Shown: positions 43,370-60,823 of the stretch, in pieces
How positions within the stretch are numbered: position 1 is the first letter of the stretch
Layout of the letters: each line of letters opens with the position of its first letter
NCBI RefSeq assembly: GCF_014280035.1
Contig: NZ_CP047957.1
Coordinates: 2,294,001 to 2,358,000 of the forward strand
Direction of reading: 5' to 3'
Length of the DNA stretch: 64,000 nt
Origin: Synechococcus sp. A18-25c
GTDB lineage: Bacteria > Cyanobacteriota > Cyanobacteriia > PCC-6307 > Cyanobiaceae
The notes under the pieces: generated by a model
What the model was told of the DNA's origin: nothing
Databases searched by the model: none
What the model saw: only the letters and a program-made list of their open reading frames with translations
Translations under genes and position numbers: made by a program

Positions 43370-43445
43370 TCGCGACCGCGCACACACTCTGACGTGACCG
43401 GTGAAGGTGCGTCAGAGTGTTGATCATCTTCGAGCAGCTGCCGCC

Positions 43446-44864
43446 ATGGTGAGCGTTCCCATGCCTGGTCCTGGCGGCGAGTCCGCCGAGGGGGGACGCC
43501 GCGGTTTCGGCAAGGGTCGCCAACGAGACGAGCCCAGCTTTGAAGCCCTGCCTGACTCGATTCCTCCCCAGAATCTGGAAGCTGAGGAAGCCGTTCTTGG
43601 CGGAATCCTGCTCGACCCCGATGCCATCGGCCGTGTGGCGGATGTGCTGCAGCCGGAAGCGTTCTATCTCAATGCCCACCGGGAGATTTTCCGCACGGCG
43701 GTGATGCTCCACAGCCAGGGCAAACCCACCGACCTTACGGCGATGACGGCCTGGCTGGCCGATACAGGTGCGCTCGAGAAAGTTGGCGGCAGCAGCCGGC
43801 TGGTGGAGCTGGTCGAACGCGTGGCCTCCACCGCGTCGATCGAGCAGGTGGCCCGACTGGTGATGGACAAGTTCCTGCGCCGCCAGCTGATCCGCTCCGG
43901 CAACGAGGTGATTCAACTGGGCTTTGATCAGAGCCTGCCGATGGAGCAGGTGCTCGACAAAGCCGAGCAGACGATCTTTGCCATCAGCCAGGAAAAACCA
44001 TCGAAAGGTCTCACCCCCACGGCGGAGATTCTCACCAGCACCTTCAACGAAATCGAAAGCCGCTCCCTGGGCACCTCCGTGGCGGGCATCCCGGTGAACT
44101 TCTACGACCTGGATGCCATGACCCAGGGCCTGCAACGCAGTGACCTGATCATCGTGGCCGGACGTCCCGCCATGGGAAAAACCTCGATCGTGCTCAACCT
44201 GGCCAAGAACGTGGCGCAGCTGCATGACCTGCCGGTTTGCGTGTTCTCCCTGGAAATGAGCAAGGAGCAGCTCACTTACAGGCTGCTGTCGATGGAGGTG
44301 GGCATCGAAGCCGGTCGGCTGCGCACCGGTCGGCTGCAACAGGACGAGTGGCCGCTCCTGGGGCAAGGCATCAACACACTCGGCCAGCTGCCGATCTACA
44401 TCGACGACAAACCGAATTCAGGCGTGCTGGAAATGCGCTCGCTCTGCCGCAGGCTGATGGCAGAACAGGGCAAGGAGCTAGGCCTGGTGGTGATCGACTA
44501 CTTGCAGCTGATGGAAGGATCGAGCCCTGACAACCGCGTGCAGGAAATTTCGCGGATCACCCGTGCCCTCAAACAGATGGCCCGGGAGCTGAACGTGCCG
44601 GTCATCGCGCTCTCCCAGCTGAGCCGTGGCGTGGAGTCACGCACCAACAAACGACCGATGCTCAGCGACCTGAGGGAATCCGGCTCGATCGAGCAGGACG
44701 CCGACCTGGTGCTGATGATCTACCGCGACGAGTACTACAACCCGGAAACACCCGACCGCGGCATCACCGAAGTGATCGTGACCAAGCACCGCAACGGTCC
44801 GGTGGGCACCGTGAAGCTGTTGTTCGAGCCCCAGTTCACCCGCTTCCGCAACCTGGCGGCTTGA
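43446..44864 (+). CDS. dnaB: Replicative DNA helicase DnaB
   Basis: 472 aa from ATG 43446 (GTG 43401 possible). N-terminal primase-interacting domain (PQNLEAEEAVLGGILLDPDA), then the RecA-like motor with Walker A GRPAMGKTSIVLNLA, Walker B VVIDYLQLM and the SQLSRGVE motif. The motor is uninterrupted: no intein, unlike some cyanobacterial DnaB. Hexameric helicase at the replication fork. Confidence 0.97.
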   Translation: MVSVPMPGPGGESAEGGRRGFGKGRQRDEPSFEALPDSIPPQNLEAEEAVLGGILLDPDAIGRVADVLQPEAFYLNAHREIFRTAVMLHSQGKPTDLTAMTAWLADTGALEKVGGSSRLVELVERVASTASIEQVARLVMDKFLRRQLIRSGNEVIQLGFDQSLPMEQVLDKAEQTIFAISQEKPSKGLTPTAEILTSTFNEIESRSLGTSVAGIPVNFYDLDAMTQGLQRSDLIIVAGRPAMGKTSIVLNLAKNVAQLHDLPVCVFSLEMSKEQLTYRLLSMEVGIEAGRLRTGRLQQDEWPLLGQGINTLGQLPIYIDDKPNSGVLEMRSLCRRLMAEQGKELGLVVIDYLQLMEGSSPDNRVQEISRITRALKQMARELNVPVIALSQLSRGVESRTNKRPMLSDLRESGSIEQDADLVLMIYRDEYYNPETPDRGITEVIVTKHRNGPVGTVKLLFEPQFTRFRNLAA

Positions 44865-45983: not shown

Positions 45984-46049
45984 CAGTGTCCGACCAAACC
46001 GTCAACAGCAGCCTCGACCACGCAGCCGCCATCCAGGAATGAACACAAT

Positions 46050-46068
46050 CGCGTACGCATCGGCTCAC
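46050..46068 (+). promoter_or_regulatory. 19-bp motif copy 1, candidate AraC-type operator (divergent region)
   Basis: CGCGTACGCATCGGCTCAC, matching 15 of 19 positions of the copies before the two giant genes. It lies 59 nt before the GTG of the AraC-type gene and 67 nt from the start of the divergent barrel gene, a suitable place for autoregulation. Weaker than the other two copies. Confidence 0.4.
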
Positions 46069-46126
46069 CATCGCGAACGATCGGGCGCACGAACAGCAAC
46101 AGTTCCAGTACGACTTCGGCCCGTCG

Positions 46127-47095
46127 GTGATTCAGTTCGACAGCACATTTTCCAGCTGCCAAGGCCTGCAGGAGCTCTTCAGTCCACTCTCACCTGATCT
46201 TGTAGCGCTGCAGATGAGCCGCGGGCCGCTCCAGGGCCGACTGCGCATCTTTCACCTCGGCGCGATTCGCTTCAATCTGCTGGAAACCAATCAAAGCCTT
46301 TTTCTCAGCGGAACCCGGCGGCCGAAACCATGCACTGTGGCCATCCCTCTGGAGGAGCCCAAGGCGTCATCGCCCTATCGGGCGCAAGGCATTCCCGTGG
46401 CATGGCCAGCCTTGATGGGATACAACCGCCACCTCACCGACTTCGACCTGAGGATCCCAGCTGGTGCCCGGCTGGCCACCATCGTGATTGGCAAAGAAAT
46501 CCTGATGGAGCAGCTGGACCGACGGGGAGGCAGCGAGCGCACCCTGGAACGCTGGGAGAGCACCAATCAACTGGAACTACAGCCTGAACTTCAGCAGACT
46601 TTGCGGGATCAGCTCAACAACCGAATTGCACGGGGTGAGCAGCGGTGGACCCCCGAAGAACCCGACCAGCTGCTGGACACCGTAATTCGCTGTTTTGAAC
46701 AGCCCAAGGCACGCACCTCACTGGTGGCCAAGCGTGAAGCACGCCATGAAGCCGCCATCGACCTGCTGCATTGGTGCGCCAGGCGCCCGACGGCAATCGT
46801 CACCGCTGACGAACTCAGCGCCGAGCTGTTCCAATCGCGTACGTCGTTGTTCCGGGGATCCAGGGAACATTTCGAACGCACACCCCTGGAACTGCAACGC
46901 TCGATCCGCATGGATCGCGTCAGGCAACTGCTGCTAGACCCGGCCCGCCGAGCGAGCCAAGGCCTGACCGGTGTTGGCGACAGCGCAGCATCGATGGGCT
47001 TCACCAGCCGCAGCCACTTCGCCCGTCACTATCAAGAGCAGTACGGGGAGCAACCGCAGGAGACGCTCACCAACGGACTGCAAGCCACAAGCTGA
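46127..47095 (+). CDS. AraC-family transcriptional regulator
   Basis: 322 aa from GTG 46127. The C-terminal ~100 residues hold the two helix-turn-helix units (LSAELFQSRTSLFRGSREHFERTP and SAASMGFTSRSHFARHYQEQYGEQP). The N-terminal ~200 residues form an effector-type domain without a recognised ligand. The frame stays open upstream to 46043 and reads naturally (HEQQQFQYDFGPS just before the GTG), but offers no ATG, GTG or TTG, so the true N-terminus may be longer through a rare start or a frameshift. Its position between the barrel gene and the first giant gene suggests that it controls this block. Confidence 0.8.
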   Translation: MIQFDSTFSSCQGLQELFSPLSPDLVALQMSRGPLQGRLRIFHLGAIRFNLLETNQSLFLSGTRRPKPCTVAIPLEEPKASSPYRAQGIPVAWPALMGYNRHLTDFDLRIPAGARLATIVIGKEILMEQLDRRGGSERTLERWESTNQLELQPELQQTLRDQLNNRIARGEQRWTPEEPDQLLDTVIRCFEQPKARTSLVAKREARHEAAIDLLHWCARRPTAIVTADELSAELFQSRTSLFRGSREHFERTPLELQRSIRMDRVRQLLLDPARRASQGLTGVGDSAASMGFTSRSHFARHYQEQYGEQPQETLTNGLQATS

Positions 47096-47110
47096 TCAGC
47101 CGACAACAAG

Positions 47111-47129
47111 CGCGTACGAACAGGCTCAG
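47111..47129 (+). promoter_or_regulatory. 19-bp motif copy 2, upstream of giant gene 1
   Basis: CGCGTACGAACAGGCTCAG, followed by ACCC. It differs from the copy before giant gene 2 at one position in 19. It starts 16 nt after the AraC stop and lies 65 nt before the micro-ORF. Likely a protein-binding site; the adjacent AraC-type protein is the natural candidate. Confidence 0.5.
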
Positions 47130-47194
47130 ACCCCCCTTGGAGAAAGGTTCACCCTTCCCAAAAGTGGATGAGAGTTTCCTGAGATGTTCCGCGC

Positions 47195-47254
47195 ATGCGC
47201 GTGATCACCAATCACTGGGTGACGCATCAAGGCGGATCGTTTCGCCTGGCTTGA
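47195..47254 (+). CDS. 19-aa leader micro-ORF before giant gene 1
   Basis: ATG to TGA encoding MRVITNHWVTHQGGSFRLA. The micro-ORF before giant gene 2 encodes a near-match (V-I-[TS]-N-x-W-[VI]-T-H-Q-x-x-S-F-R-L-[AS]) at exactly the same distance, 11 nt, from its gene. Differences are mostly conservative (V/I, T/S, A/S), which argues for translation. Its stop overlaps the GAGG of the giant gene's ribosome-binding site, as in translational attenuators. No strong ribosome-binding site of its own. Confidence 0.5.
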   Translation: MRVITNHWVTHQGGSFRLA

Positions 47255-47265
47255 GGCAGGGCGCG

Positions 47266-50200
47266 ATGTCTGAGCTCAGTGAACAAGCAAGCAACGCACC
47301 TGCAGCAAGCTTCAGCGCACAGACAGCTGCTGCCGCTGAAGCCACACCGATTGAAGCAGCAGGCGCTTCGGTGTCCACGTCGGTGTCCGAACAGAGCAGC
47401 GCCATCAGCACCAGCGCACCTGAGACCGGCAGTGAACCAACCAGCCTGACCAGCGACGCCGGCAACGAGAGAACCGAGAGCACGTCTCCAGCATCGAGCG
47501 ACGCAACGGAGCTCAACCCGCTCAATTCGAACGCAGCACAGCCCACTGACTCCACTGCAGCAGAGCCCAGCCCCACGCCAGCTGAACCGCCGATCACCCC
47601 AGAGTCATTGCAGCAGCTTTGGCATCCGCAGCTGCAGGAATGGGCGTCAGAGGGCGAGCTTCTGACGGCAGCCAGCACGGCGCTACATCTCGACTCCAAC
47701 CACCCCCCAGAACAGCTCAAAACCCTGATTGCCAATCTGGCAGCGGGCGAAACCAGCGATATTCCCCCGATTGAGCTACTTCAGCAAGCCGCCATGTCGG
47801 GCGCCGCTGGCGCCTACGCCGAGAGTACTGGCACGATCTATCTCAATAAAAGCTGGCTCAGCAGAGGAACAAACAAGCAAACAATCAGTGTCCTAACAGA
47901 AGAGTTTGGCCACCACTTAGATCACATCATTAACAAGAGAGATACACCAGGCGACGAGGGCCTGACCTTCTCAAACCATCTCACCCAACAAACCGCAGAG
48001 ATTGATACAAACGATCGACACGTTTCGACGGGTCTAATTTTTGTCGAAGGAACGTGGATTAAAGCGGAATTCAGTTTCACAGGGTTCACCGGATTTGGTG
48101 GCAACCTCATACAGCCAAACCAAATCCAACTCACTGAAGACGCACTGATTCAATACAACACCCTGCTTTCACAGGGTCAGGAGTTGACGTATAGCTACGG
48201 GGGGATTCCGCCCACGGTTGGCATTCTCAGTGCTGAGGGCCAATCAATTCTCGACAACTTAGGGACCAACTCACTCGGCACAGCGGGTTACAACTTCGCC
48301 GAGACCTCCCCTTGGGACCTCCGCTACGTCAGCTTCGGCGGATGGATTGGTGGCACTGGCACCAAGCATGCCCTGGTTGGTTGGACGGACAACAGCACCC
48401 AACCCGGCAATGAGGGGACCCTTAAGGGTGGTGAGTTCCGGCTTAGCTACGGCACCGACGGCTACATCCGCCTCTACTACCAAGATGTGCTGAAGCTGAC
48501 TTCGGCCTCGACGTTCACGGGCGATCAGACCCTCACTCTGGTGGGGTTCGACGACCAGCAGCAAACCAACGTCTACATCCCCAGCAACTGGACCCTTGCT
48601 CCCATCATCGCCCTGACAGCCGATGTCTCATCGCTGAGCGCCGGAGAGACGGCCACCCTCACATTCACCCTCTCAGAAGCCTCCACCGATTTCACTGTTG
48701 ACGATGTCACCGTTTCTGGTGGCACCCTCTCCAACTTCTCCGGATCCGGCACCTCCTATTCCGCAACATTCACGCCAACAGCAGACAGCACAACAGACGG
48801 TGTCATTTCTGTTGGATCTGGAGTCTTCTCCAATTCAAGCGGCGCCACCAATGCTGATGGCTCGGATGCCAACAATTCCGTCACCCTCTCCGTCGACACC
48901 GTCAGGCCAACCATTGCCGTCACATCCGATGTCTCATCCCTGAGCTCCGGAGAAACGGCCACCCTGACCTTCACTCTCTCGGAATCATCCACGGATTTCG
49001 TTGAGGCCGATGTCTCCATAACCGGTGGCAGCCTCTCCAACTTCTCCGGTTCCGGCAGCTCCTATTCCGCCACCTTCACACCAGACACCAGCAGCGACAC
49101 CAATGAGGTGATCTCCATTGCCTCCGGCGTCTTCGCTGATGCAGCTGGCAACACCAACCAAGACGGGACCGATAGCAATAACTCCGTCACCCTCACCGTC
49201 GACACGGTCTCAGCGCCACCATTCACCCGGCTCGGCAACGACATCGATGGCGAAGCCGCTGGTGATGAAAGCGGTTCCGTTGCTCTCTCCAGCGATGGAA
49301 CCATTCTGGCCATCGGTGCGCACTACAACGACGGCGGTGGCAACAGACGAGGCCGCACGCGTATCTATGCGTGGAATTCAGGAACCAGGCGCTGGGATCA
49401 ACGCGGCGACGACATCAATGGAGAGTGGAATACGGACTACTCAGGCAGTGCCGTCTCCATTTCGGACGATGGGTCCGTCGTTGCGATTGGGGCCATTAGT
49501 AACAATGGCAATGGCAATGAATCAGGCCACACCCGCATCTACGCCTGGGATGGCAGCGCCTGGGTGCAGCGCGGCGGCGACATCAATGGTGAAGCTTCGA
49601 ATGACAACAGCGGTGGTGCTGTCTCCCTATCGAGCGATGGCAGCGTTGTTGCCATCGGTGCCAAATACAACGACAACGCTTCCGGCGAAAACGCCGGCCA
49701 AACCCGCGTCTACGCCTGGAATGGCACGGCTTGGGTGCAACGCGGCAGTGACATCGATGGAGAGTCTGCCCAAGACCTCAGTGGCTGCTCAGTCTCGCTC
49801 TCAAGCGATGGCAACACGCTGGCGATTGGCGCGCAACAAAACAGCGGTGGCGGCAACAAGTCGGGCCACACGCGCATCTACACCTGGGATGGCAGCACCT
49901 GGGTGCAACGCGGCAGTGATATCAATGGCGAAAGCGGGGGCGATCAGAGCGGCCTCTCCGTTTCCCTCTCCACCGACGGCAACGTTGTCGCCATCGGCGG
50001 TAAGTACAACGACGGCAACGGCAGCGACTCAGGCCACACCCGCATTTACTCCTGGGATGGCACCGCTTGGGTCAAGCGCGGCAACGACATTGATGGAGAG
50101 AGCGCTGGCGACCGCAGTGGCGCCAAGGTTTCCCTTTCCGGTGATGGCAACGTTGTCGCCATCGGGGCACCGCAAAACGCTGCCAACGGCACGAATTCTG

Positions 50201-51696
50201 GCCACACCCGCATCTACCAGTGGGATGGCACGGCCTGGAATCACATCGGCAGCGACATCGATGGAGAAGCGGCCGATGACTACAGCGGAGGCCAGATCTC
50301 CCTATCGCGCGATGGCAGCACCGTTGCCATCGGCTCCATTTTTAACGACGACAACGGATCGAGTGCTGGGCATGTGCGCGTCTTCCGGCTGACGGACCTC
50401 ACGGCGCCCACCATTGCCGTCACCGATGACGATGCTGATAACTCCCTGAGTTCTGGTGATACATCAACACTCACCTTCACCCTCTCAGAAGCTGCCACAG
50501 ATTTCGTCGAATCCGATGTCGCCGTTTCCGGTGGATCCCTCTCCAATTGGACTGCTGTCTCCAGCACCGTTTACACCGCAACCTTTACACCCACATCTGA
50601 CAGCACCACCGATGGTGTGATCTCAGTTGCCAGTTCGAAATTTTCTGATGCCGCCGGCAACACCAACAACGATGGGGCCGATGCCGACAACTCCGTCAAC
50701 TTCTCAATCGATACGCGCAATCAATCATCAGGATCTTCAGCCGCTTTTGCCTCTTCACCACAAGAAAGTGAAAGTGTCGATCTCCCATCAAGACCGCCTC
50801 TTTCCGGCAGCCAACTCATCGTCGCGTCTAATAGGAAACAACTTCAAGTCACTGAAGGAGAAGGTCTTTGGATTCAACTCGAAGCGACAGGAGCAGTAAC
50901 AGAACACCATAACGTGCTTGAAGTCACTGATAACAAAGGCAACACTCTAGGAAGCGTTGGAGCTACAAAGTGGTCGACCAATCTTGGCTGGCATGAGTTT
51001 TACGCCAGGGGAGGAACCACTTTTTCATTCCATAGCCACCAGAACCAAAACACCTTTTCTGAATTCCCGGAGATTAATTTTTTTCAGGAAAGCGACTCAA
51101 TCAGTGCAAGACTAAATGACAATCCAAGCATCGACGAGGACAGTGACGACCTGCAATTACGCATTACCAGCTCCCAGGAAGCTTCAAGACCCGTAGCGGC
51201 ATTACTGGCATCTCAACAAAAGAATGTCGAAGACACTATCTTAAACTTTACAGAGATTAAAGACAATTCGCAGATCAAACTTTCCATCAACAGCGAATGC
51301 GATGACACCAACCAATTCGCACTGATCAAAATAGACGATTTCAACGACAACGAAATCATCGTGAATGGCATTTCAAGCCAATCAAAAGAGGCCTTTCGAA
51401 CCGCGATTGAAGACGAACTTATTCACCCAGACCAAGGCAAGCTTGTAACAAGCGGGTCAGGAACACAAACAGCGAGCTTGACACTTAACCAAAGCGATCA
51501 AGGCTTTTACGCACCCGTTTTCATCAACCAAACCACCAATCAACTGTTCACAGCAGGGTTTTCAAGCGCTTCGGAAAGCTGGACACAAGTTAGAACGCTG
51601 GGCAGAAACTTCTTCGGCTACGAGGACACCCACGACTCCAATCAGAGCGACTGGGACTTCAACGACATGACCGTGAATGTGGAGTTAATCACTTGA
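47266..51696 (+). CDS. Giant secreted-type protein 1: metallopeptidase-like N-module, Ig-like and beta-propeller repeats, DUF4114 C-terminus
   Basis: 1476 aa from ATG 47266 (GAGGCAGGG upstream). Order: Ala/Ser/Thr-rich start; conserved module about 105-250 with LQQLWHPQLQEWASEGELL and VLTEEFGHHLD (EExxGHH-type motif, Glu212-His217) and DTPGDEGLTF; a short beta-rich unit; two bacterial Ig-like domains (about 450-650); seven ~54-residue repeats (about 652-1044); a third Ig-like domain; and a C-terminal module of ~330 residues ending in FFGYEDTHDSNQSDWDFNDM (DUF4114-like) and a short hydrophobic tail. There is no N-terminal signal peptide, which with the tail fits type I secretion. Cell-surface or extracellular location is inference. 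Ends and layout match giant protein 2. Confidence 0.85.
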   Translation: MSELSEQASNAPAASFSAQTAAAAEATPIEAAGASVSTSVSEQSSAISTSAPETGSEPTSLTSDAGNERTESTSPASSDATELNPLNSNAAQPTDSTAAEPSPTPAEPPITPESLQQLWHPQLQEWASEGELLTAASTALHLDSNHPPEQLKTLIANLAAGETSDIPPIELLQQAAMSGAAGAYAESTGTIYLNKSWLSRGTNKQTISVLTEEFGHHLDHIINKRDTPGDEGLTFSNHLTQQTAEIDTNDRHVSTGLIFVEGTWIKAEFSFTGFTGFGGNLIQPNQIQLTEDALIQYNTLLSQGQELTYSYGGIPPTVGILSAEGQSILDNLGTNSLGTAGYNFAETSPWDLRYVSFGGWIGGTGTKHALVGWTDNSTQPGNEGTLKGGEFRLSYGTDGYIRLYYQDVLKLTSASTFTGDQTLTLVGFDDQQQTNVYIPSNWTLAPIIALTADVSSLSAGETATLTFTLSEASTDFTVDDVTVSGGTLSNFSGSGTSYSATFTPTADSTTDGVISVGSGVFSNSSGATNADGSDANNSVTLSVDTVRPTIAVTSDVSSLSSGETATLTFTLSESSTDFVEADVSITGGSLSNFSGSGSSYSATFTPDTSSDTNEVISIASGVFADAAGNTNQDGTDSNNSVTLTVDTVSAPPFTRLGNDIDGEAAGDESGSVALSSDGTILAIGAHYNDGGGNRRGRTRIYAWNSGTRRWDQRGDDINGEWNTDYSGSAVSISDDGSVVAIGAISNNGNGNESGHTRIYAWDGSAWVQRGGDINGEASNDNSGGAVSLSSDGSVVAIGAKYNDNASGENAGQTRVYAWNGTAWVQRGSDIDGESAQDLSGCSVSLSSDGNTLAIGAQQNSGGGNKSGHTRIYTWDGSTWVQRGSDINGESGGDQSGLSVSLSTDGNVVAIGGKYNDGNGSDSGHTRIYSWDGTAWVKRGNDIDGESAGDRSGAKVSLSGDGNVVAIGAPQNAANGTNSGHTRIYQWDGTAWNHIGSDIDGEAADDYSGGQISLSRDGSTVAIGSIFNDDNGSSAGHVRVFRLTDLTAPTIAVTDDDADNSLSSGDTSTLTFTLSEAATDFVESDVAVSGGSLSNWTAVSSTVYTATFTPTSDSTTDGVISVASSKFSDAAGNTNNDGADADNSVNFSIDTRNQSSGSSAAFASSPQESESVDLPSRPPLSGSQLIVASNRKQLQVTEGEGLWIQLEATGAVTEHHNVLEVTDNKGNTLGSVGATKWSTNLGWHEFYARGGTTFSFHSHQNQNTFSEFPEINFFQESDSISARLNDNPSIDEDSDDLQLRITSSQEASRPVAALLASQQKNVEDTILNFTEIKDNSQIKLSINSECDDTNQFALIKIDDFNDNEIIVNGISSQSKEAFRTAIEDELIHPDQGKLVTSGSGTQTASLTLNQSDQGFYAPVFINQTTNQLFTAGFSSASESWTQVRTLGRNFFGYEDTHDSNQSDWDFNDMTVNVELIT
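49221..50397 (+). repeat. Seven ~54-codon beta-propeller-like repeats in giant gene 1
   Basis: Each unit follows R-G-x-D-I-[DN]-G-E...SG..VSLS.DG..VAIGA..N....SGHTRIY.W.G.AWVQ. Seven units in a row suit a seven-bladed propeller. DNA similarity between units is high in the middle copies, indicating recent duplication. Confidence 0.75.
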
Positions 51697-51799
51697 ATGT
51701 AGCTTTTTTGCTCGCCACTGTTCAGAACAAGGCTGGGAACCACTGCTAAACACCCTCTCCAACAGAGCCCGAACCTGAAGCTGATCAAGCAGCGGCGGT

Positions 51800-51818
51800 C
51801 GCGTACTAACAGGCTCAG
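51800..51818 (+). promoter_or_regulatory. 19-bp motif copy 3, upstream of giant gene 2
   Basis: CGCGTACTAACAGGCTCAG, 66 nt before the second micro-ORF (65 nt in copy 2). AAGCTGATCA also precedes both copies. The stretch 51697-51884 otherwise holds no gene; a TAGAAT box at 51854 may be the -10. Confidence 0.5.
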
Positions 51819-51884
51819 ACCCTTGTTGCCACACGTTTTCTTTTCTCTAAGAATAGAATGAGAAATGTCTGAGTTGACCCGTGA

Positions 51885-51944
51885 ATGCACGTGATCAGCA
51901 ATGACTGGATCACACACCAAGTCAGGTCGTTTCGCCTGAGTTGA
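51885..51944 (+). CDS. 19-aa leader micro-ORF before giant gene 2
   Basis: ATG to TGA encoding MHVISNDWITHQVRSFRLS, paralogous to the leader at 47195. Twelve of nineteen residues are identical and several others conservative. It ends 11 nt before the giant-gene ATG, as in copy 1, and the purine-rich GAAGCAAG used for initiation of the giant gene overlaps its stop. Confidence 0.5.
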   Translation: MHVISNDWITHQVRSFRLS

Positions 51945-51955
51945 AGCAAGACGTG

Positions 51956-54900
51956 ATGTCAGAACCTGGCGAACAGGCGACCCATGCAGCCGCTGAAAGC
52001 ATCAGCGCACAGATAGCCCCTGCAGCAAAATCCACACCCATCGAAGCTGTAGACGCGTCGTTGTCGGATTCGGTCACCCAACAAAACAACAGGCGCACGA
52101 CCAGCGACATCAACAACGACAGCACGTCTCCAACACCAAGCACTTCGACAAACCTCAACTCACTCGATTCCAACGAAGCACAGACCACTGACTGTTCAGC
52201 AGAAGAGCTCGATCATGCGACAGCAGAACCGCGGATCACCACAGAATCACTGCAGCAGCTTTGGCATCCCCAGCTGCAGGAGTGGGCGTCAGAGGGTGAG
52301 CTTCTGACGGCAGCCAACACAGCGCTGCACCTCGACTCCAACAACCCCCCAGAACTTCTTACCGGAATCGTGGAGCGCCTGAGCCAAGGTCTCTCCAGCG
52401 ACATTCCCCCGATTGAATTCCTTCAGCAAGCCTCCATGGTGGGTGCCGCTGGAGCTTATGCAGCATCAGAGCAAACCATCTACCTCAACCATGACTGGGT
52501 CAAGGCCGCCAGCGAAACTGACACTATCAAGGTTCTCACCGAAGAGTATGGCCACCACCTTGATGCACTGATTCACACCACAGACACGCCTGGAGATGAG
52601 GGTCTATATTTTGCAGATTTACTGACTGAAAGCGGCAACATCGAGGATCCAAACCATTACCTTGAACTCAAGGATCTTGGGCACATTACCGTTAACAACG
52701 AACAAATTGACGTAGAGTTTTCACAACAAAATAACTCACTCGAATGGATACAAGTTGGCAATGAGATTAATGGCTCCTCAATTTCTGCAAAAGCCGGGTA
52801 CGCAGTCAGTCTTTCACAAGATGGAACAATCCTTGCGGTTGGAGCACCTTTTGACGACGTCAACAGCAGCTTTACGCAAACAAACGAAGGCAGTGTCACC
52901 GTCTATCAAGACGTAAATGGCAGCTGGCAACAATTAGGCAGCGAAATCGAGGGTGCTAGCGCCGAAGAACAATTCGGATACTCGGTCAGCCTTTCAAATG
53001 ATGGAACAAAGCTTGCTGTTGCTGCATTGTTTGCCAACACAGCGAATGGAACAAAGACCGGGAGAGTCAATGTTTACAGCTTTACTAATGGAGATTGGAG
53101 TGAGCTACAAACCGGCGGCATCGCAGGGCCTGTCGAGAAAGGACGCATCGAAAATGTTGCTCTCTCTGGAGATGGAAACTACGTCATTTTGGGCTCATCC
53201 AAAATGCAGACAGGCAGAGCCCAGATCTACCAATTTAGCAATAACCAATGGGCGCAAATTGGCACAACGCTCTCTGGAACAAAAAACAATGACCGATATG
53301 GATACGCGGTTGATATATCCGATGATGGCAGCATCATCGCAGTGGGCTCATTTGGAGCTGACGCAACCAACGCCAGCAATTCAGGCGCCGTTAATGTATA
53401 CGAATTAATCGACAACCAATGGAATGAGATAACAGAAATCAAAGGTGAAAAACGTACTGACAACCTCGGCTATTCGGTTGCGCTCTCATCAGACGGTACT
53501 TATCTTGCCGTAGGAGCAAGAAATCACGATACCGGGGGCAACACATCATCCAACGAAGGCTACGCTCAGGTCTATAAAAGAAATGGCTCTTCTTACGCAC
53601 AAATTGGACAGACACTAGTTGGCAATCAAGCCGGGGAAAAAGCAGGAACAAAGGTCAGCATTTCTGATGACGGATCTCGGTTAGCGATAGGATCGGGATT
53701 TTATAACTCTGATAAAAATAATGTTGGCCAAGCCAGACTTTATGAGCTTCAATCAGACACTTGGATCCAGATTGGATCAGACATTAATGGTCAAAACACA
53801 AACGACCTTGCCGCAAGATGGCACGGATTAAGTCTGAATGGAGGTGGAACAAGAGTCGCTGTTGGGGCCCATAACAATGACAACAACGCAAGAAATTCCG
53901 GCCAAGTTCGGATCTTTGACAGTTCTGGAATCACCATTGCTCAGACCAGCACTCCCCTGGTCACTACAGAAGGAGGCACGTCCGCCTCTTTCACCGTCGT
54001 CCTCGACGCCCAGCCCACAGACACCGTCACCGTCGCCATTTCCGGCGACGACAGCACAGAGCATGAGCTCAGCGCCTCATCGCTCACCTTCACCACCGCC
54101 AACTGGGACACACCCCAGACCATCACCGTCACCGGCGTTGACGACAGCCTCGTCGATGGCGATATCACCACCACAATCACCGCCACCGCGTCCAACACCG
54201 GCGGGTACGCAGGCACTGAAACGGCTATAGCAACGCTCCAAACCAGCGACGACGACACCGCCGGCATCACCATCGCTCAGGGAATCACGCCGCTCGTCAC
54301 CTCAGAAACCGGCACCACTGCTTCATTCACCGTCGTCCTCGACGCCCAGCCCACAGACACCGTCACCGTCGCCATTTCCGGCGACGACAGCACAGAGCAT
54401 GAGCTCAGCGCCTCATCGCTCACCTTCACCACCGCCAACTGGGACACACCCCAGACCATCACCGTCACCGGCGTTGACGACAGCCTCGTCGATGGCGATA
54501 TCACCACCACAATCACCGCCACCGCTTCCAACACCGGCAGTTACGCAGGCACTGAAACGGCCACAGCAACGCTCCAAACCACCGACGACGACACCGACGA
54601 TGGCAGCAACGGCGTCACCATCACCCAAGGCGCCAACAAAGAAGGCGCTGATCTGCTCACTTCAGAGGCCGGCATCACATCCACATTCACAGTCGTTCTC
54701 GATGCTCAGCCCACAGACACCGTCACCGTCTCCATCACAGGCATCGACGCCACTGAAAACTCACTGAGCGGCTCCACCCTCAGCATTTCAAACACTCTCA
54801 CCTTCACAACCGCCAACTGGGACACAGCCCAGACCATCACGGTCACCGGTGTCGACGACAGTTTCGTCGATGGCGATATCACAACCACAATTACCGCCAC

Positions 54901-57900
54901 CGCTTCCAACACCGGCGGTTACGCAGGCACTGAATCCGCCTCCACCACCATCAAGAACTCTGACGACGAGGTTGCCGGCATCACCATTGCCCAGGCCAGC
55001 ACTCCCCTCGTCACCACAGAAGCCGGCTCCACCGCCACATTCACCGTCGTCCTCGATGCCCAGCCCACAGACACTGTCACCGTCGCCATTACAGGCAACG
55101 ACACCAGTGAAAACTCACTGAGCGGCTCCACCCTCAGCTCTTCAAACACTCTCACCTTCACAACCTCCGATTGGAATACACCTCAAACCGTCACCATCGC
55201 CGGTGTCGACGATGGGCTCATTGACGGCGATATCACCACCACTCTCACTGCCACGGCATCCAATACCGGTGGGTACGCAGGAACCGAATCCGCAACAACA
55301 ACAGTCAAAAACGACGACAACGACAATCCTCCTGCACTCTCAAATCAAAACATCTACGTCCTTGAGACCGTTGCCGATGGCAGTGAACTCATCGATCTAG
55401 CAGATAGCAATACAAGCAATGACACCGATCAGGATGATGATCCCATCAGCTATTCCATTCTCGATGGAAACGACACAAAGCTCTTTACCATTGATTCAGA
55501 AACGGGAAAAATTTATCTCGCGACAAATAAAACACTGAATTACACAACAAGCGATCGTCATGAGTTGCAAATCAAAGCATCTTCAACAGGTGGAACATCA
55601 ACAGCGACAATCACTATCTACGTACAAAATGTGAACAGTACCCCGGTCGCAGAGGACGACAGCGGTTCGCTCAACGAAAACGAAGCACTAAGCAAGACAG
55701 AGGTCGAAGGCCTGATCGCAAACGACTCTGATGAAGATGTGAATGACACTCTTTCGATTAGCAATTTTCACGCTGGTTTAAGTGATACAGATTCACCAAG
55801 AATCGGCCAGTTTAATACTGCACTCGATGGCATCTATGGCCAGCTCACACTCCAAACCAATGGATCTTATACATATACAGCCAACAAGACCAGCGCAGAT
55901 GCACTCAACGCTGGTGAAACAGGGACAGACACGTTCAGCTACACACTGAGTGACAGCGAAGATACAGATCAAGCCGAACTTACAATTACAATCGCAGGCA
56001 TTAATGACATTCCATTTCTTGTTGATGCAATCAAAACTAAGAAGTATATTGAGGGTCAAGGCAATGTCATTGTCATTGACGGAAGCCTTGATATCCGCGA
56101 TGTCGACGACGAGAATATTGAAAGCGCAACAGTCTCAATCAGCAATGGCACATACGTCAGCACGGAAGATCAGCTGGCATTCAGCGATGCCTATGGAATC
56201 ACGGGCAACTGGAATTCCAGCACGGGAATATTAACTCTCAGCGGCACAACAACCAAGACTAATTACATAAGTGCACTACAAACTGTCACTTATACAAACA
56301 CCAACAACGCCAATCCAGTCATCGGAACAAGAACCATTGATTGGCTAGTTAATGATGGAGATAGCAATTCAACCAGCATTCAATCAAGCATCATTGTAGG
56401 TGGGCGCAATGATGCACCTTTAGCAGTCAACGATTCAGCCAGTGTGGATGGGGGATCAACAGTCTCGACCAGCACAGCAGACAACCTTTTGGTCAATGAT
56501 ACGGACCCAGAAAGTCACTCGCTAACGATCAAATCTTTTCGCATAGGCAGTGAACAATCATCAAACCCTGAATTTCTTGCTGGGAATACCCTGACAGGGT
56601 CCTACGGTCAGATGACCATCGCTTCGGATGGGACATACAGTTATACAGCACAAGAAACTGCTAGTTATAAACTCCTGGAGGGAGAAACAGCAACCGAAAC
56701 TTTTACGTACACAATCACAGACAATCAAACAACTGACGAAGGATTCGACACCGGTGAGATAACGATCACAATTAGTGGTGTTAACGACGCCCCAAACGCA
56801 ATTGACGACTCAGTCGATGTCGACGAAGACAGCTCCAAACAATTTGCTGACTTTCTAGGCATCTTAAAAAACGATACTGATATTGATGGTGATCAGCTTT
56901 TCGTCAAAGGGGTCATCGCAGGAGCTTCAACAAGCAATTTTCAAGCAAGACGCCTGGAATCGAGCAGTCTCAGCACAGAGTTACAGGGAACTTACGGCGT
57001 CTTGATTGTCAATTCCAATGGATCTTTTCGCTACACAGCAAGCTTGGCTGATGCTCTTGATGCAGGCGACAAAGAAATGGATCGATTTACCTATACCCTA
57101 ACTGACCTCACGAATGATGACAGCGGAGTCATCGCAATCGAAGTCACCGGGATTAATGATACGCCTTTATTGTCAAGCATCACAACCGGAACAATTAGCG
57201 ATCAAACCAATTCTTCCTCCCTGCAGACAAGCAACATTTCCGGTCAACTGTCAGCAACTGATGCTGATGCTTCCGCTGTACTGACCTATGGCATCAGTGG
57301 AGCGAGCGGGTCCACAGCGTCAGGAACTTATGGCACTTTGGCACTAAACAGCACAACTGGGGCTTATCAATACTCACCGAATAGCTCGGTCATTGAGGCA
57401 CTTAATGCAGGAGAAAGCGTTTCTGATTCTTTTGAGATCTACGTCAGTGATGGCAGTCAGTCAACGGCCAAGACCTTTCAGATCAACATCACCGGTGCAA
57501 ATGACGCCAGCACTACAGGATCAAACACCAGCAATAAGTCCACTGAAAGTCAAACCTACGGTCTAACCATTGTTGCCAGTGGAATCATCAATCGTGCTGG
57601 CCAACTCATCACAACCGAAGAAGGAACCTCTTCCTCCTTCAGCGTTGTCCTCAATCGACAACCCAGTGCTGATGTTGACGTGCTGATCTCTGGGCTGGAT
57701 TCAACGGAAGGACGTCTCAACAAAAACATACTCAGATTCACACCCTCTAACTGGAACGTGCCACAGACCGTCACCGTGACGGGCATCAACGACAGGTTCA
57801 CAGATGGCGATACCACCTACAACCTCACTGCAACTGCCAATGAGGCAGGCGGTTATTCCGGCAACGAAGCAGCGACCATCACAATCAAGAATGTTGATCA

Positions 57901-58804
57901 TTCCAATCCGCAACCAAGTCAATTAGTGATGAACAGTGATGACGAAGGTTTGCGGACAACTGGCGACACTGGACTTTGGGTTCAACTTGAAGTTCTGCAG
58001 GCCAATGCTGATTTACACAACAGCCTACAAATCATTAACGATCAAGAAGAAGCCATCGGATCCATCGGGGCCACTCGCAACTCCACAAACATGGGAAAAC
58101 AAGAATTCTTTCTTAGTGGTGGAAGAGAGTTGTTCTTTCATCAGTTGAGTCATGACTCGAAACTTGATAAATCACCAAGTCTTCGAATTAACTCATCAAT
58201 TAATGATTTTATTCTTAACCTTGATGACAGCAAAGAAGGAGACAATGACCACGATGATCTATCAATCAAAATCACCACCTCTCAAAGCGCAAAAAATCCA
58301 ACTGCTGCCATACTCGCTTCAGAACAAAAAAATATTTACGACTCAATCCTGAACCTTTCTGAGATCAACACTCCAACAGCAAAACTAAGGATCACCATTC
58401 AAAGTAATTGCGCTGATGTCAACAAGGTAGGCCTCGTGAAAATCATAAGCAATGAAAACAATGAATTTTCAGTCAATGGAGTTGCCTCGACAGCCGGGGA
58501 ATCTTTTGATCAAGCGATTCGCGACAACCTGGTCAACCCCGACGGATCTGAGCTCTTGATCAATGGTCTAAGCACACGCCAAGTCGAATGGAACATCAAT
58601 CAAGGTGAGGAAGGATTTTATGCACCTGTTTTTATTAATCAAAACACTAACGATCTCTTCACCTTTGGGGCCACAAGCGCAGCCGACAATCAAATCCACG
58701 TTAAAAACTTAGGTAGTAATTTCTTTGGCTATGAAGATACTCTTTCATCTCAAAATTCAGACTGGGACTTCAATGACATCACCATGTTAGTGGAAATGAT
58801 CTGA
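51956..58804 (+). CDS. Giant secreted-type protein 2: metallopeptidase-like N-module, propeller, Calx-beta-like, cadherin/VCBS repeats, DUF4114 C-terminus
   Basis: 2282 aa from ATG 51956. The N-module matches giant 1 (LQQLWHPQLQEWASEGELL; VLTEEYGHHLD with Glu196-His201; DTPGDEGLYF). Then seven propeller-type repeats (about 262-658, diverged), four Calx-beta-like repeats (about 658-1120, pattern FTVVLDAQPTDTVTVAISG...FTTANWDTPQTITVTGVDD), a cadherin-like domain, about five VCBS-type domains (GxYGQLTLxxNGSYTYTA...LNAGE), one more Calx-beta-like unit and the shared C-module ending FFGYEDTLSSQNSDWDFND and LVEMI. Asp/Asn-rich loops predict Ca2+ binding. No signal peptide; type I secretion and an adhesive role are inferred from family resemblance. 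Confidence 0.85.
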   Translation: MSEPGEQATHAAAESISAQIAPAAKSTPIEAVDASLSDSVTQQNNRRTTSDINNDSTSPTPSTSTNLNSLDSNEAQTTDCSAEELDHATAEPRITTESLQQLWHPQLQEWASEGELLTAANTALHLDSNNPPELLTGIVERLSQGLSSDIPPIEFLQQASMVGAAGAYAASEQTIYLNHDWVKAASETDTIKVLTEEYGHHLDALIHTTDTPGDEGLYFADLLTESGNIEDPNHYLELKDLGHITVNNEQIDVEFSQQNNSLEWIQVGNEINGSSISAKAGYAVSLSQDGTILAVGAPFDDVNSSFTQTNEGSVTVYQDVNGSWQQLGSEIEGASAEEQFGYSVSLSNDGTKLAVAALFANTANGTKTGRVNVYSFTNGDWSELQTGGIAGPVEKGRIENVALSGDGNYVILGSSKMQTGRAQIYQFSNNQWAQIGTTLSGTKNNDRYGYAVDISDDGSIIAVGSFGADATNASNSGAVNVYELIDNQWNEITEIKGEKRTDNLGYSVALSSDGTYLAVGARNHDTGGNTSSNEGYAQVYKRNGSSYAQIGQTLVGNQAGEKAGTKVSISDDGSRLAIGSGFYNSDKNNVGQARLYELQSDTWIQIGSDINGQNTNDLAARWHGLSLNGGGTRVAVGAHNNDNNARNSGQVRIFDSSGITIAQTSTPLVTTEGGTSASFTVVLDAQPTDTVTVAISGDDSTEHELSASSLTFTTANWDTPQTITVTGVDDSLVDGDITTTITATASNTGGYAGTETAIATLQTSDDDTAGITIAQGITPLVTSETGTTASFTVVLDAQPTDTVTVAISGDDSTEHELSASSLTFTTANWDTPQTITVTGVDDSLVDGDITTTITATASNTGSYAGTETATATLQTTDDDTDDGSNGVTITQGANKEGADLLTSEAGITSTFTVVLDAQPTDTVTVSITGIDATENSLSGSTLSISNTLTFTTANWDTAQTITVTGVDDSFVDGDITTTITATASNTGGYAGTESASTTIKNSDDEVAGITIAQASTPLVTTEAGSTATFTVVLDAQPTDTVTVAITGNDTSENSLSGSTLSSSNTLTFTTSDWNTPQTVTIAGVDDGLIDGDITTTLTATASNTGGYAGTESATTTVKNDDNDNPPALSNQNIYVLETVADGSELIDLADSNTSNDTDQDDDPISYSILDGNDTKLFTIDSETGKIYLATNKTLNYTTSDRHELQIKASSTGGTSTATITIYVQNVNSTPVAEDDSGSLNENEALSKTEVEGLIANDSDEDVNDTLSISNFHAGLSDTDSPRIGQFNTALDGIYGQLTLQTNGSYTYTANKTSADALNAGETGTDTFSYTLSDSEDTDQAELTITIAGINDIPFLVDAIKTKKYIEGQGNVIVIDGSLDIRDVDDENIESATVSISNGTYVSTEDQLAFSDAYGITGNWNSSTGILTLSGTTTKTNYISALQTVTYTNTNNANPVIGTRTIDWLVNDGDSNSTSIQSSIIVGGRNDAPLAVNDSASVDGGSTVSTSTADNLLVNDTDPESHSLTIKSFRIGSEQSSNPEFLAGNTLTGSYGQMTIASDGTYSYTAQETASYKLLEGETATETFTYTITDNQTTDEGFDTGEITITISGVNDAPNAIDDSVDVDEDSSKQFADFLGILKNDTDIDGDQLFVKGVIAGASTSNFQARRLESSSLSTELQGTYGVLIVNSNGSFRYTASLADALDAGDKEMDRFTYTLTDLTNDDSGVIAIEVTGINDTPLLSSITTGTISDQTNSSSLQTSNISGQLSATDADASAVLTYGISGASGSTASGTYGTLALNSTTGAYQYSPNSSVIEALNAGESVSDSFEIYVSDGSQSTAKTFQINITGANDASTTGSNTSNKSTESQTYGLTIVASGIINRAGQLITTEEGTSSSFSVVLNRQPSADVDVLISGLDSTEGRLNKNILRFTPSNWNVPQTVTVTGINDRFTDGDTTYNLTATANEAGGYSGNEAATITIKNVDHSNPQPSQLVMNSDDEGLRTTGDTGLWVQLEVLQANADLHNSLQIINDQEEAIGSIGATRNSTNMGKQEFFLSGGRELFFHQLSHDSKLDKSPSLRINSSINDFILNLDDSKEGDNDHDDLSIKITTSQSAKNPTAAILASEQKNIYDSILNLSEINTPTAKLRITIQSNCADVNKVGLVKIISNENNEFSVNGVASTAGESFDQAIRDNLVNPDGSELLINGLSTRQVEWNINQGEEGFYAPVFINQNTNDLFTFGATSAADNQIHVKNLGSNFFGYEDTLSSQNSDWDFNDITMLVEMI
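53931..55320 (+). repeat. Four Calx-beta-like repeats, two nearly identical at DNA level
   Basis: Units start near 53931, 54267, 54610 and 54978. The first two have a period of exactly 336 bp (112 codons), and over about 250 bp (53990 onward against 54326 onward) they differ at only a few bases. A fifth, diverged unit lies at about 57555-57900. Confidence 0.8.
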
Positions 58805-58846
58805 GAGCTTTCGACAAACAAACCTGTGGCATTGGAGAATGAAGGC

Positions 58847-60823
58847 ATGACCGCCTCCACAGCCCCCACGGAAGTTTTCGACGTGATCGTCGTCGGTGGC
58901 GGCCACGCGGGCTGTGAAGCCGCCATCACCAGTGCTCGCCTGGGGATGAACACCGCACTATTCACACTCAACCTGGATCGCATCGCCTGGCAGCCCTGCA
59001 ATCCAGCTGTGGGCGGCCCCGCCAAAAGCCAACTGGTGCATGAGGTCGATGCCCTTGGCGGCGTGATCGGGCGCCTCGCCGACGCCACCGCCATCCAGAA
59101 ACGAATCCTCAATGCCAGCCGCGGCCCTGCGGTCTGGGCCCTGCGTGCACAGACCGATAAGCGGCAGTATTCACGCCAGATGTTGCAGCTGCTGCAGCAC
59201 ACCCCCAACCTGGCACTGCGCGAGGCGATGGTCACAGGGCTGGAGATCGAAGGGGATCCCAGTGGCGGTGGAACCTCCTGGGACCCAAGCCAAGGTCCAG
59301 CCGCAAGCATCACCGGCGTGCGCACCTATTTCGGCAGCCTTTACGGAGCCAAAGCCGTCGTGCTCACCGCCGGCACCTTCCTCGGTGGGCGCATCTGGGT
59401 GGGCCACCAGTCGATGGCGGCAGGACGGGCCGGCGAGCAGGCCGCCGAAGGGCTTACGGAAGCCCTGCATCAGCTCGGGTTCCACACCGACCGACTGAAA
59501 ACCGGCACCCCAGCGCGGGTGGATCGGCGCAGCATCACCCTCGATCAATTGGAGGAGCAACCCAGCGACGCGGCAGACCGGTTCTTCTCGTTTGACCCCG
59601 CCGCCTGGAGCAGCGGCGAACAGATGAGCTGCCACATCACCCGCACCACAGCAGCAACCCATCAACTGATCAAAGACAACCTGCATCTCACCGCGATCTA
59701 TGGCGGCGTGATTGACAGCAAGGGGCCGCGCTACTGCCCCTCGATCGAAGACAAGATCGTGCGCTTTGCCGACAAGGACAGCCACCAAATCTTCCTGGAG
59801 CCCGAAGGGCGCGACACGCCGGAGATCTACGTGCAGGGCTTCTCCACCGGCCTGCCCGAACCGATCCAGTTGCAACTGCTGCGCAGCCTGCCTGGCCTGG
59901 AACAAGCTGTGATGCTGCGGCCGGCCTACTCCGTGGATTACGACTATCTGCCGGCCACACAACTGCTGCCATCGCTGGAAACCAAACGCGTGCAAGGGCT
60001 ATTCAGCGCTGGTCAGCTGAACGGCACCACGGGCTACGAGGAAGCCGCGGCCCAGGGATTGGTGGCTGGACTGAATGCCGCAAGGCGCATCCGCGCTGAA
60101 GAGGCGGTGCACTTCCCTCGAGAAGGCAGCTACATCGGGACCATGATCGACGACCTGGTGAGCAAAGATCTGCGCGAGCCCTATCGGGTGCTCACCAGTC
60201 GTAGTGAATACCGGCTCGTGCTGCGCGGCGACAACGCTGACCGTCGCCTCACCCCCCTGGGCCGGGAACTCGGACTGATTGATGACCGTCGCTGGCAATT
60301 GTTTGAGCAGAAGCTCAAGGCCATGGACCAGGAAAAACGGCGGCTGGAACAGCAGCGACTGAAGGTGAGCGATCCCGCCGCCCCCGCTGTGGAGGAGGAG
60401 ACCGGGGCCCCCATCAAAGGCTCCATCACCCTGGCCGACCTCTTGCGCAGACCAGGCATGCACGCCGCCGACCTGGTACGCCATGGCTTGGCTGATGGGG
60501 ACCTGCCGCTACCGGTGCGCGAAGGCGCTGAAATCGACATCAAATACAGCGGTTATCTGGCCCGCCAACAGCAACAGATCGACCAGGTGAAACGTCAAGG
60601 TCAGCGCAAGCTGCCTGCGGAGATTGCCTACGCAAGCATTGGCACCCTCTCGCGGGAAGCCAGGGAAAAGCTGGCGGCCGTCCGCCCACTCACTCTTGGC
60701 CAAGCCAGCCAGATCCCTGGTGTCAGCCAGGCGGACCTCACTGCTCTGCTGATGTGGCTGGAGTTGCAGCAACGGCGCGATCCTTCCGCAGCGGCCCTCG
60801 CTTCCAACGCCAACGCTCGATAG
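58847..60823 (+). CDS. mnmG: tRNA uridine-5-carboxymethylaminomethyl modification enzyme MnmG (GidA)
   Basis: 658 aa from ATG 58847 (GTG 58826 is in frame). N-terminal FAD-binding [14 protein letters not shown], the conserved [21 protein letters not shown] and [32 protein letters not shown], and [20 protein letters not shown]. With MnmE it installs the 5-carboxymethylaminomethyl group at the wobble uridine of several tRNAs. Starts 42 nt after giant gene 2 and resumes core-genome base composition. Confidence 0.97.

Follow-up and report, generated by a model that had tools for sequence, protein, structure and literature searches.

Recurring mini-ORFs and a probable AraC-linked promoter module precede two giant genes of Synechococcus sp. 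A18-25c

Two giant genes in the window (the whole 64,000-nucleotide stretch analysed here) are each preceded by a 19-codon mini-ORF. Comparison with relatives indicates that what is truly conserved in front of the giant genes is an AraC-linked promoter module and, weakly, the position of the mini-ORF start codon. The encoded peptide is not conserved, and its conserved look appears to be mainly a product of the joint duplication of gene and promoter.

Results

Both giant genes of the host genome (2.51 Mb, a single contig, coded G000 in our comparisons) lie in a variable slot, bounded by dnaB (43401-44864) and mnmG/gidA (58826-60823), where they follow an araC-type regulator gene (Table 1). They encode multi-domain surface-type proteins with Big_12, FG-GAP and cadherin-like domains, and the C-terminus of giant 1 shows a weak match to DUF4114. 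Orthologs of the araC gene were found in 20-odd genomes at 47-83% identity, many of them directly 5' of a giant gene. In two genomes (G210, L173; G296, L170) mnmG directly follows the araC ortholog, without a giant gene between them. In G016 (L126/L127) araC-giant modules are repeated about 20 kb apart, and the N-terminal copies of the first giant contain an internal TAA.

Giant gene 2, together with its promoter, is best read as a tandem duplicate of the giant 1 unit, because the similarity of the leader DNA runs from the last bases of araC through the promoter and the leader into the giant N-terminus. The two leaders are 72% alike over 164 nt. By this reading the duplication carried promoter and leader along with the giant gene; thus the equal position and length of the two mini-ORFs would be inherited, and do not count as independent evidence.

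Table 1. Coordinates of the features discussed, in window positions
Feature	Position	Strand	Details
araC-type regulator gene	46127..47095	+	Pfam HTH_18, E 6.9e-12
Element A, copy 1	47113..47127	+	CGTACGAACAGGCTC; kept in five leaders, also in the second genus
Element B, copy 1 (promoter/leader)	47169..47183	+	TGAGAGTTTCCTGAG; kept 54-57 nt after A in two genera
Mini-ORF 1	47195..47254	+	19 codons, ATG..TGA, peptide MRVITNHWVTHQGGSFRLA
Giant gene 1	47266..51696	+	1476 aa
Element A, copy 2	51802..51816	+	CGTACTAACAGGCTC
Sigma-70-like hexamers, copy 2	51826..51854	+	TTGCCA-17-AAGAAT; consensus match only
Element B, copy 2 (promoter/leader)	51859..51873	+	TGAGAAATGTCTGAG
Mini-ORF 2	51885..51944	+	19 codons, ATG..TGA, peptide MHVISNDWITHQVRSFRLS; 48/60 nt same as mini-ORF 1
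Giant gene 2	51956..58804	+	2282 aa

An earlier note on this DNA had described the mini-ORFs as a conserved regulatory leader peptide. Their coordinates, their equal length and the 11-nt gap between each stop and the giant ATG (47266 and 51956) are borne out. The further statement that the stop lies over the downstream ribosome-binding region holds for copy 1, where it overlaps GAGG, and fails for copy 2, where the equivalent stretch reads only GAAG. Upstream of the mini-ORF there is no good SD, only GAG 11 nt 5' of it.

The region between araC and the giant gene contains, in two genera, a promoter module of two elements: A (CGYACNANCRGGC), followed 54-57 nt later by B (TGAGNNNTTNCTGAG). With the spacing anchored on CGYAC, the A-to-B start distance falls within this range in nine modules: 56 and 57 nt for the first and second window copies, 56 nt for G010, G016a, G024a, G128 and G007, 57 nt for G256, and 54 nt for G337. 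The exceptions are G246 (79 nt), G008 (about 45 nt, with a degenerate B), and G016b/G024b, for which A is uncertain. The exact element A occurs at three sites of the host genome, two at the giants (47113, 51802) and one elsewhere. Box B alone was rejected as a marker: the other host-genome matches examined lie in coding sequence or have no giant gene after them. Several matches fall in genes for Nif11-like precursor peptides (MSEEQLKAFLEKVK...), which were met near 596036, 790053-801623 and 1112000 (L193, L195-L198).

Conserved sites are thus linked to the regulator, with A and B following araC in two genera as in an AraC-controlled promoter, and going by this linkage only, AraC probably acts at the A/B promoter. 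A site that differs from element A by one mismatch (CGAACGATCGGGCGC, 46074-46088) lies 53 nt 5' of the araC start and could mediate autoregulation. Transcription starting near B would fit the promoter-like hexamers found 5' of B in copy 2 (Table 1); copy 1 shows none at the threshold used for copy 2.

The 12 nucleotide differences between the two mini-ORFs are distributed evenly over the three codon positions (4/4/4). Their peptides are identical at 12 of 19 residues, where random placement of 12 substitutions averages 11.6 (P=0.52), and their BLOSUM score is equalled or bettered in 21% of stop-free random trials (P=0.21). The substitutions, described earlier as conservative, are therefore indistinguishable from random ones, and three of the residue differences (H/D, G/V, G/R) are non-conservative. 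By Nei-Gojobori counts, pS is 0.284 and pN 0.19 for the mini-ORF pair, on only 12 synonymous sites, and the first 36 giant codons give pS 0.60 and pN 0.17. Compared by frame, dN/dS of the mini-ORF pair is lowest in frame 0 (0.62 vs 1.49 and 2.43), on few sites.

To the eye of a segment-by-segment comparison, identity between the copies is 22/26 in the element A region, 14/34 (41%) in the A-B spacer, 12/16 in the box B region and 48/60 (80%) in the mini-ORF, with 6/11 and 7/11 in the 11-nt stretches that flank it. Element A aside, the 60-nt ORF interval is the best-conserved leader stretch between the copies. At third positions 4/20 differ in the mini-ORF vs 16/36 in the giant (20/36, or 56%, identical). 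On these counts the ORF interval is clearly slowed and blind to codon position, indicating constraint at the nucleotide level; the slowed 60 nt fits a lineage-specific nucleotide element or a short gene-conversion tract equally well.

We queried three sets of genomes with the giant N-terminal domain and the AraC protein: 31 from the genus, 400 sampled from the family, and those of a second genus. For the two genera that carry the module, all genomes available to the analysis were covered. The same leader type was found within the host's own genus in G010, G016 and G024. The ORF in the mini-ORF slot is MSIRHAELAAFALRSLTQG in G010, with its stop 10 nt 5' of the giant's GTG start, and MPIAAAGYVVIIRSLLRLNRGKVQ (24 codons) in G016/G024, where stop and giant ATG overlap in an ATGA. 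The bodies of these ORFs match the window ORFs at 18-21 of 54 nt, where shifted controls average about 13. Compared with the relatives, the copy 1 peptide shows no significant similarity (P=0.15) and that of copy 2 a marginal one (P=0.02), matched by an equally marginal nucleotide similarity (P=0.03). Between G016 and G024 the 24-codon ORF shows 2 silent and 0 replacement changes, too few to weigh. The second module of these two genomes has a 111-codon ORF in the slot, with a GTG start at the same 11-nt offset after B; its pS is 0.186 and its pN 0.229, with 0.255 and 0.031 for the adjoining giant, and by this measure the 111-codon ORF evolves without peptide constraint. In both G016 and G024 (L163) it is in frame with the next giant, with a single TAA between.

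Conservation of the leader peptide is thus not supported, with amino-acid identity at the random level between the copies and unrelated peptides in the relatives. The earlier note had itself named nucleotide rather than amino-acid conservation as the outcome that would speak against its reading, and this is essentially what was observed: amino-acid conservation does not reach significance in the further copies, and nucleotide conservation within the window pair is blind to codon position.

In four genomes of the second genus (G256, G128, G337, G246) and in G007, the giant seemingly starts 2-6 nt after box B, without leader or uORF. A blastn search of the leader in 99 relatives gave weak short matches only; the best, in G016 (E 0.0036), was discarded, as it falls in an ABC-transporter-like coding region. 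No leader match was found in phage and plasmid collections, and a box profile scan of distant relatives of the N-terminal domain, taken from a contig scan that included Synechococcus and Cyanobium, yielded no further strong leader.

The layout of the ORF recurs where its sequence does not. In five leaders (both window copies, G010, G016 and G024), the uORF ATG follows B by 10-11 nt and precedes the giant start by 70-71 nt, the stop lies at +11, +11, +10, -4 and -4 nt relative to the giant start, and the aligned uORFs contain no indel. The three lineages share only about 35% identity in the leader body and still keep both the ATG position and the open frame. Shuffling a single leader yields an ATG ORF of 15-25 codons that ends beside the start in 9-23% of cases; the joint chance in three lineages is about 0.3% if they are independent, which they are not fully, and the feature was chosen after inspection. 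What goes beyond easy chance is that three diverged lineages place the start codon at the same position. All five stops lie near or over the downstream start, as translational coupling requires, and spacings of -4 to +11 nt are within the range reported for coupling (PMC12548453). Of the regulatory leader proposed earlier, the coupling geometry is therefore upheld in all five leaders of the genus, and the sequence-specific stalling or sensing peptide is not.

An Rfam scan of 46000-60000 returned two sub-threshold snoRNA matches only, and no family. None of four leaders has a significant RNA fold (z -0.36, -0.85, -0.69 and 0.03), and no terminator-like site was found at the two window leaders. 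For stalling or attenuation, we thus found neither a stable or switching RNA or terminator nor a peptide conserved beyond nucleotide expectation.

Discussion

Our tentative preference, which falls somewhat short of even confidence, is for an arrangement in which araC, the A/B promoter and the duplicated giants are joined by a translated coupling uORF that is indifferent to its peptide. The regulator would act at the two-element promoter A + B; transcription would start at B or just 5' of B; and the mini-ORF would sit in a leader of roughly 90 nt, with its start codon 10-11 nt after B. Ribosomes would enter close to the 5' end and translate about 20 codons; termination beside or over the giant start would then raise local re-initiation at the giant. 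We infer AraC binding, the transcription start, uORF translation and coupling from the sequence. The coupling uORF is favoured over a signal-bearing peptide because of the fixed start position and the stop-to-start spacing. Against it weigh the poor SD of the uORF, the shuffle rate per leader, the restriction to three diverged lineages and the post hoc recognition of the ATG position. Moreover, the giants of G010 and G016 carry good SDs themselves, so that coupling would not be needed there, and a peptide-blind coupling model leaves the 60-nt conservation between the window copies unaccounted for.

A doubtful but serious competitor is that the mini-ORF is incidental, an untranslated open stretch whose likeness between copies comes from tandem duplication and from constraint on leader and promoter. 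The even spread of differences, the random level of amino-acid identity, the relatives with unrelated peptides or without a leader, the unconstrained 111-codon ORF in the same slot and the chance level per leader all agree with it, but it does not explain why ATG position and open frame are kept in three lineages at such low leader-body identity, with no indel inside the ORF. We regard it as improbable that the 60 nt are a lineage-specific nucleotide element, such as an RNA or DNA binding site, with the ORF secondary; short gene conversion would give the same pattern. The high identity of the ORF interval relative to the A-B spacer and to giant third positions, and the few differences at its own third positions, point that way, but the two window leaders show no significant fold and no Rfam family, and the 60 nt are not conserved in G010/G016. 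Its stricter form, in which every position of the lineage-specific 60 nt is constrained and the element controls both giants, whether as a translated leader in which both codons and residues matter or as an RNA/DNA-binding site, is rated lower still.

We consider it highly improbable that giant synthesis is gated by a leader peptide that stalls or senses through its specific sequence, because significant amino-acid conservation is missing and the nucleotide conservation is blind to codon position. The low dN/dS of frame 0 (on few sites), the two exclusively silent changes between G016 and G024, and the marginal similarity of copy 2 to its relatives would favour such a peptide, but nucleotide similarity is just as marginal, the similarity of copy 1 is not significant, the peptides of relatives are unrelated, and the residue differences between the copies include non-conservative ones. 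Scarcely credible, finally, is the mini-ORF as the real giant N-terminus, reached by frameshifting: in copy 1 no stop interrupts the giant frame within the leader, but in copy 2 that frame is closed upstream, and the offset between the two starts varies by lineage (70 nt in G010, 71 nt in G000 and G016/G024). On these grounds frameshifting from uORF to giant was rejected.

In leader peptides of the TrpL, TnaC and SecM types, critical codons or residues are conserved, and an RNA switch is usually present. The mini-ORFs resemble them as short ORFs in a 5' leader and differ in that neither conserved critical residues nor an RNA switch was found here. The module itself resembles promoters linked to AraC-family (HTH_18) regulators in having a linked regulator gene and paired conserved sites 5' of the target, with binding here putative; no description of the A/B module was found in the literature searched. 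For the coupling uORF, the closest reviewed system is translational coupling by termination-reinitiation between closely spaced ORFs (PMC12548453), which is matched by an ORF that ends -4 to +11 nt from the downstream start, with the ATGA overlap in G016/G024. Unlike in that system, the upstream ORF here is no gene, being non-conserved and roughly 20 codons long, and the coupling is only putative. Among bacterial regulatory uORFs, a small ORF in the intergenic region ahead of a Salmonella Mg2+ transporter gene is reported to have an experimentally shown function (PMC8092293); the likeness lies in a short leader ORF just 5' of a large gene, and the difference in the peptide, which is not conserved here.

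On balance the observation is real, its novelty is modest, and a coupling uORF is plausible from the layout. The case illustrates that a leader ORF can come to resemble a conserved peptide through tandem duplication. The firmer result is an AraC-linked promoter module conserved at giant genes, and it points to a regulator that can be tested and to candidate sites. If the uORF does couple translation, it would provide simple access to the way in which picocyanobacteria ration the synthesis of very large surface proteins.
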